Source: Aquimixticola soesokkakensis (lineage in GTDB: Bacteria > Pseudomonadota > Alphaproteobacteria > Rhodobacterales > Rhodobacteraceae). From it: a DNA stretch of 64,000 nucleotides. A program made the translations under genes and the position numbers. Positions 54,147 to 55,491 of this stretch are shown here, one piece after another. How positions within the stretch are numbered: the first letter of the stretch is position 1; every line of letters begins with the position of its first letter. The notes under the pieces are model-generated. The model was given only the letters and a program-made list of their open reading frames with translations. It did no database searches and was not told the origin of the DNA. The stretch lies in assembly GCF_900172375.1 (NCBI RefSeq), contig NZ_FWFS01000003.1, positions 62,001-126,000 of the forward strand. Direction: 5' to 3'.

Positions 54147-55328
54147 TCAAACCGCGTCGAGGGCCTGCAAAATATCGGCAAGCAGATCCTCTGCATCCTC
54201 AAGCCCAGCAGACATGCGCAACATGCCCGGCGTAATGCCTGCGGCCTGCCGGCTGTCTTCAGTCAGGTTCTTGTGCGTGGTGGTCGTGGGATGCGTTGCG
54301 ATGGATTTCGCATCGGCAAAGTTGTTGGAAATCGTAAATACTTCCAATGCGTTGAGGAATTTGAACGCCGCCGCCTTGCCCCCTTTCACATCAATCGTGA
54401 ACACGGTGCCGCCCGCCTCATACTGACGTTTGGCCAGATCGTATTGGGGGTGGGATTTTTGCGTCGGATAGCGCACGCCGTTGAGTTTGGCGTGACCTTC
54501 CAGCGCATCGGCCAGAAACAGGGCAGTGCCCGCCTGCTGGCGCACCCGCAGATCGAGCGTTTCGAGCGATTTGAGCTGCACCCAGGCGTTGAACGGCGAA
54601 ATCGCGCCGCCGGTGTGTTTGACGTAGGTCTCGACAGGCCCACGGATCAGCTCGCGGGTGCCGATGATCATGCCACCAAGGCACCGCCCCTGCCCGTCCA
54701 CATGTTTTGTGGTCGAATAGACGATCAGATCACAGCCCGCCGCTTTGGCTTGGGTGAAGATCGGGGTGCTCATGGCATTGTCACAGACCACCAGCGCACC
54801 CACGGCATGGGCCAAGTCGCACACCGCTTTCATGTCGATGACTTCGAGCGTGGGGTTGGAAATGCTTTCAAAGAACACAGCCGTCGTGTCGGGGCGAATG
54901 GCCGCTTTCCACTGCTCCAGATCGGTGCCATCGACCAGGGTGATTTCCACGCCAAAGCGCGCCAGAACCGATTCCAGAATATAGAGGCACGATCCGAACA
55001 GTGCGCGTGACGAGACCACGTGATCGCCCGCTTTGACGATGGACATCAGCGCCCCATTGACCGCCGCCATGCCCGAGGCGGTTGCAAACGCGTCCTCGCA
55101 GCCCTCGATCGCGGCCATGCGATCCTCGAACATACGCGAGGTGGGGTTGCCGTAACGGGCGTAGATGAATTCATCCTCGCCGGTTTTCAGGAACCGCGCT
55201 TCGGCCGCTTCGGCACTGTCGTAAACAAAGCCCTGGGTCAGGAACAGCGCCTCGGAGACCTCGCCATATTGCGAGCGCCGCGCGCCTTGGTGAACCAGTT
55301 TCGTGCGTGTTTTCCAAGTGTCAGACAT
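54147..55328 (-). CDS. metZ: O-succinylhomoserine sulfhydrylase
   Basis: PLP enzyme of the Cys/Met-metabolism family that makes homocysteine from O-succinylhomoserine and sulfide (393 aa). The PLP Lys208 is in VYSTTKHVDGQGR, and EDEFIYARYGNPT and ATASGMAAVNGALMS are family blocks. ATG 55328 has GGAGAC just upstream. The leader carries a SAM-II riboswitch and a terminator, so transcription falls when S-adenosylmethionine is high. The wording fits metZ better than cystathionine gamma-synthase, but the enzymes are closely related. Confidence 0.92.
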   Translation of the reverse strand: MSDTWKTRTKLVHQGARRSQYGEVSEALFLTQGFVYDSAEAAEARFLKTGEDEFIYARYGNPTSRMFEDRMAAIEGCEDAFATASGMAAVNGALMSIVKAGDHVVSSRALFGSCLYILESVLARFGVEITLVDGTDLEQWKAAIRPDTTAVFFESISNPTLEVIDMKAVCDLAHAVGALVVCDNAMSTPIFTQAKAAGCDLIVYSTTKHVDGQGRCLGGMIIGTRELIRGPVETYVKHTGGAISPFNAWVQLKSLETLDLRVRQQAGTALFLADALEGHAKLNGVRYPTQKSHPQYDLAKRQYEAGGTVFTIDVKGGKAAAFKFLNALEVFTISNNFADAKSIATHPTTTTHKNLTEDSRQAAGITPGMLRMSAGLEDAEDLLADILQALDAV

Positions 55329-55348: not shown

Positions 55349-55382
55349 GAAAAACCCCCACCTCTGTGCAAAGAGTCGGGGG
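55349..55382 (-). terminator. Leader terminator of the metZ riboswitch
   Basis: On the minus strand CCCCCGACTCT (55382-55372), a six-base loop and AGAGGTGGGGG (55365-55355) form an 11-position stem with one mismatch and one G-T wobble, followed by TTTTT. It lies between the SAM-II aptamer and the ribosome-binding site. An upstream CCCCCAC (55392-55386) is an alternative partner for GTGGGGG. Confidence 0.78.
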
Positions 55383-55402
55383 CGGTGTGGGGGCGTCCTC
55401 GA

Positions 55403-55456
55403 CCTGTTTAGCGGCATGTTTAACGTGGCCCGCAAGCAAGGTGCAAATCGCCACGC
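55403..55456 (-). promoter_or_regulatory. SAM-II (SAM_alpha) riboswitch upstream of metZ
   Basis: Read on the minus strand, GTGGCGATTTG is followed by TTGCTTGCGG, GCCACGTTAAACATG and CCGCTAAACAGG. This is the SAM-II pseudoknot: stem P1 is GTGGC/GCCAC, and the conserved words are GATTTG, CTTGC, TTAAA and GCTAAA in order and spacing. The gene behind it is a methionine-synthesis gene, the usual target in alphaproteobacteria. Confidence 0.92.
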
Positions 55457-55462
55457 GGACAG

Positions 55463-55491
55463 GTCGTAGCGCCCTGCCCTGCCCCTGTCAA
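55463..55491 (-). promoter_or_regulatory. Predicted promoter of the metZ leader
   Basis: A perfect TTGACA (55491-55486), a 17-base spacer and TACGAC (55468-55463) on the minus strand. Transcription would begin near 55456, right at the first base of the SAM-II aptamer, which supports the call despite the weak -10. Confidence 0.6.

Follow-up and report, generated by a model that had tools for sequence, protein, structure and literature searches.

The closest described counterparts of the leader reported here are the SAM-II riboswitches, also known as the SAM_alpha or metA element. Corbino et al. 2005 (PMC1273637) reported that the P1 stem is usually preceded, at a distance of a few nucleotides, by a near-consensus promoter, and that in many representatives an intrinsic terminator separates P2 from the gene, which points to an OFF switch; the same arrangement was already described by Barrick & Breaker 2007. 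In Sinorhizobium meliloti, SAM-driven termination has been predicted for metZ, and a leader RNA of about 100 nt from this gene accumulates under high SAM (Scheuer et al. 2022, PMC9373788). In a regulon reconstruction (PMC4239095), SAM_alpha elements are placed before metY in both Rhodobacterales and Rhizobiales. A second mode of action, occlusion of the ribosome-binding site, is the model for metX and does not fit the metZ leader presented here.

Here we describe a leader in Aquimixticola soesokkakensis that is very probably a SAM-II riboswitch by which abundant SAM shuts off transcription of metZ. Its sequence supports transcriptional OFF control well, and SAM would be expected to promote termination in this copy as well. 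The leader is a further copy of a known arrangement, which is not itself new; what we add is a co-varying antiterminator and a conserved linkage between metZ and folE2.

Results

A SAM-II aptamer ahead of metZ

The window, a stretch of 64,000 nucleotides of genomic DNA, contains a single Rfam match, a full-length hit (1-79 of 79) to the SAM-II aptamer model RF00521 (SAM_alpha) at positions 55464-55387. With 56.8 bits and an E-value of 4.2e-10, this covariance-model match lies well above the family cut-off of 36 bits, and it overlaps the interval 55403-55456 at which a preliminary description of the locus had expected such a match. Promoter, aptamer, terminator and metZ all lie on the minus strand, and a genome-wide covariance-model search located no further copy of RF00521 in this genome. 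The P1 hairpin, likewise anticipated in that description, is formed by CGUGGC (55455-55450) and GCCACG (55429-55424), six base pairs in the Rfam alignment that are also evident in the sequence. The P2 pseudoknot comprises at least ACCU (55442-55439) paired with AGGU (55405-55402), an assignment made by inspection against the published P1/P2 architecture, as the RF00521 model does not score P2.

The gene downstream, metZ (55328-54147), belongs to the methionine/SAM pathway, as is required of a SAM-II riboswitch. It encodes an O-succinylhomoserine sulfhydrylase of 393 amino acids that scores 517.1 bits against NCBIfam TIGR01325 (cut-off 510) and is the only protein in the genome above that cut-off. 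Judged by its sequence, then, the leader is a SAM-II riboswitch aptamer and would be expected to bind SAM. Together with the promoter and terminator described below, the RF00521 match and the TIGR01325 assignment bear out the earlier proposal of a SAM-II unit in front of metZ. The fold of the whole leader (55464-55325) had no extra stability over shuffled sequences (z 0.05), which is unsurprising for an RNA that is switching, pseudoknotted and GC-rich, and this value was left out of the evidence.

Elsewhere, the same genome carries a SAM-SAH riboswitch (RF01727, 61.4 bits; locus L112, G000:C20:47685-47732) that precedes a metK-like gene, named MetK from reading its protein. A SAM-SAH riboswitch before metK is expected in Rhodobacterales (PMC4239095).

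A conserved unit in the Rhodobacteraceae

Of 249 genera sampled from the Rhodobacteraceae, 195 gave an RF00521 match above the cut-off; 14 control genomes gave none. RNA-model searches, fetched regions and a MetZ search together yielded a set of 180 distinct leaders that contain the aptamer core, the nearest MetZ relatives, at up to 79% identity, being those of Celeribacter. All 180 loci have a MetZ homologue downstream on the same strand, a linkage that is a test only for those loci found with the RNA model, the remainder having been found by MetZ itself.

A sigma70-type promoter at 55491-55463 is recognised from its sequence and from spacing conserved in relatives. Its -35 element, TTGACA (55491-55486), is exact, as had been noted before, and is followed by a 17-nt spacer and a -10 element, TACGAC (55468-55463), that matches TATAAT at three of six positions. 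A simple single-sequence scan did not report this promoter because its thresholds reject the TACGAC hexamer, and a strict single-sequence terminator scan missed the hairpin at 55382-55350, reporting only a different terminator, probably on account of an internal mismatch in the stem. As scanning of the single sequence thus reported neither element, comparative evidence from relatives was used. TTGAC occurs 34-52 nt upstream of GATTTG in 167 of the 180 leaders (1.4% in shuffles); in 161 of the 167, the distance from its first base to a TA is exactly 23 nt. Transcription probably starts near 55456, the base preceding P1. Among the 167 promoters, G is enriched (74% and 61%) at offsets 19-20 from the -35 element, three to four bases upstream of the T of the -10, the spacer being otherwise variable.

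The intrinsic terminator (55382-55350) consists of a stem (55382-55372 with 55365-55355), a 6-nt loop (55371-55366) and a run of five T (55354-55350). The 11-position hairpin with T5 given in the preliminary description is right, with nine Watson-Crick pairs, one G.U pair and one A/G mismatch. Folded alone, 55388-55349 reaches -17.4 kcal/mol (z -2.74). When a terminator is defined as a hairpin with a folding energy of at most -8 kcal/mol and a T-run directly behind it, one follows the aptamer in 157 of 180 relatives (4 of 120 in shuffled sequences), and the stem begins at a median of 17 nt 3' of GCTAAA; by these criteria the other 23 relatives have none. An intrinsic terminator between aptamer and gene, which a transcription-attenuating platform requires, is therefore present, and by this comparison it forms a single conserved unit together with the promoter, the aptamer and metZ.

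Species of Celeribacter differ in this element: some (loci L034, L037, L038 and L039) keep the hairpin but no longer have a T-run, reading GGGGATAATGG or the like in its place, and others (L032, L036 and L040) retain T6. A single genus thus offers, behind one and the same aptamer, a natural series of stages in the decay of a terminator.

A predicted antiterminator with co-varying strands

OFF control at the level of transcription needs a structure that delays the terminator when SAM is absent. The stretch directly after GCTAAA, which forms the P2 3' strand, is a complement of the terminator 5' arm, or of this arm plus the loop. In the window, GGUCGAGG (55404-55397), which overlaps the P2 3' strand, forms a predicted duplex of -9.7 kcal/mol with CCCCGACU (55381-55374) inside the terminator 5' arm. 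Many relatives pair GAGGUC-N-GGG with CCC-N-GAC-G-CUC, and others use different complements, such as AAGGC/GCCUU or GGUCA/UGACC.

This complementarity is specific to each genome. Duplexes between a genome's own strands average -11.2 kcal/mol, versus -9.7 ± 0.14 kcal/mol for strands swapped between genomes, and none of 200 swaps reached the own value; in a set reduced to 13 representatives that share less than 75% MetZ identity, one swap in 500 did so. Since sequence kinship can mislead such swaps, each strand was also mated with those of its six closest relatives, and own mates were better by 1.08 ± 0.16 kcal/mol (+0.10 ± 0.09 for a control stretch of the aptamer). Pairing of the P2 strand with the terminator 3' arm was considered and rejected, own pairs being weaker than swapped ones, which leaves the 5' arm as the pairing partner.

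Predicted folds of the window leader agree with two exclusive states: a transcript ending before the terminator 3' arm folds into the antiterminator with seven of the expected pairs, and the terminator is the predicted fold both of the full transcript and of a transcript whose P2 strand is blocked. The antiterminator takes up the GGU of P2 as well as most of the terminator 5' arm and so cannot coexist with either structure, as an OFF switch requires. Complementarity and co-variation thus point to a mutually exclusive antiterminator that shares a strand with the aptamer. Folds of whole transcripts separate weakly, at least four antiterminator pairs forming in 52% of own and 44% of swapped combinations. 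For the full-length RNA at equilibrium the terminator is predicted to beat the antiterminator, and switching must therefore be kinetic. We found no description of this antiterminator across Rhodobacteraceae in the literature searched, an absence that is no proof of novelty.

The window leader has one further feature, a C-tract (CCCCCAC, 55393-55387) within the antiterminator loop that is a perfect complement of the terminator 3' arm (GUGGGGG, 55361-55355). Such an extra complementary 6-mer is rare, occurring in 4 of 157 loci with the window included. As a guess, the tract could pair with the 3' arm to give a terminator-like hairpin despite the antiterminator, which would make the switch leaky.

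Linkage of metZ and folE2

On the same strand, 54 nt after metZ, lies folE2 (54092-52938; NF010200, 292 bits), encoding GTP cyclohydrolase IB. A same-strand folE2 follows metZ in 79 of 80 named relatives, with a median gap of 86 nt, and in these 80 the gap holds a terminator-like hairpin in 4 cases and a TTGAC-N17-19-TA promoter in none. The genome has no further member of its family, and a search of this assembly (98.9% complete) for the other GTP cyclohydrolase I family, PF01227, gave no match, which leaves folE2 as the only GTP cyclohydrolase I gene found there. We tentatively suggest, at slightly less than even odds, that metZ and folE2 form one transcript under the control of the SAM-II leader, through which SAM would gate homocysteine synthesis together with the sole GTP cyclohydrolase I, the point of entry into folate synthesis, across Rhodobacteraceae; the 86-nt gap may leave room for a promoter of another type ahead of folE2. 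Were folE2 part of this transcript, folate supply and methionine synthesis would come under joint regulation by SAM, a link between metZ, folE2 and SAM-II of which we found no description in the literature searched.

Discussion

We propose that transcription would begin at or just upstream of P1. Without SAM, the P2 3' strand (AGGUCGAGG) would be free to pair with the nascent terminator 5' arm, delaying the terminator and letting RNA polymerase continue into metZ, perhaps also into folE2. When SAM is present, the pseudoknot would lock the P2 3' strand and leave the 5' arm free for the GC-rich hairpin, and transcription would stop at U5 to give a leader RNA of about 105 nt. The choice between these folds is presumably kinetic.

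It is unlikely that the aptamer acts instead on translation or RNA stability, with the terminator a constitutive attenuator uncoupled from SAM. This has been proposed for S. meliloti metA, where the terminator behind the SAM-II aptamer was not predicted to respond to SAM and a Shine-Dalgarno sequence in P2 is required for translation (PMC9373788). In the present leader P2 does contain the SD-like GAGG (55400-55397), but no start codon lies close behind it, and metZ has its own ribosome-binding site, AAGGAG (55339-55334), 5 nt upstream of the ATG at 55328. This site is 58 nt downstream of the antiterminator strand and past the terminator, so P2 cannot directly hide it, and occlusion of the metZ site in P2 was rejected. 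An uncoupled terminator would also have no need of the co-variation seen between the P2 strand and its 5' arm.

That the locus is chiefly a source of a small RNA, its terminated leader acting in trans like RZ/RA2 of S. meliloti, is considerably less probable still. RZ, of about 100 nt, accumulates at high SAM (PMC9373788) and the leader predicted here is of similar size, but no trans target is known from that work or shown by the present data, and the linkage to metZ in all loci fits a role in cis. A chance adjacency of aptamer-like words, a promoter-like hexamer and a GC-rich hairpin could draw on the single-sequence scan, with no promoter above threshold and only a different terminator; it is already refuted, to within a vanishing probability, by the model match (E 4e-10) and by the fact that most relatives conserve all three parts. 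SAM-responsive control of transcription termination is accordingly the reading that we prefer.

The preliminary description took the terminator to point to transcriptional control and set this against the translational action often assumed for SAM-II. The first part stands, supported in sequence comparisons by conservation of the terminator and by the co-varying antiterminator. The contrast is weaker than it was presented, because PMC1273637 and PMC9373788 already point to terminator control by SAM-II. On its own, then, the leader confirms a prediction of the literature for SAM-II in alpha-Proteobacteria. A compact leader whose antiterminator co-varies over many genera is also a clean system for testing SAM-II control of termination directly, a test that is still missing.

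Compared with the SAM-II/SAM_alpha/metA element (PMC1273637), the locus has the same P1 stem and P2 pseudoknot, a promoter near P1 and a terminator before a methionine-pathway gene; it differs in nothing of kind, the present copy having the extra C-tract before its terminator. With the Rhodobacterales SAM_alpha regulon it shares the position upstream of a metY/metZ-type sulfhydrylase gene as core target, whereas folE2, promoter spacing and an antiterminator go unmentioned in the accessible part of that reconstruction (PMC4239095). The S. meliloti metZ leader (PMC9373788) has the same target gene, a predicted SAM-driven terminator and a terminated leader of about 100 nt; it belongs to the Rhizobiales, and the one described here, with folE2 behind metZ, to the Rhodobacteraceae.
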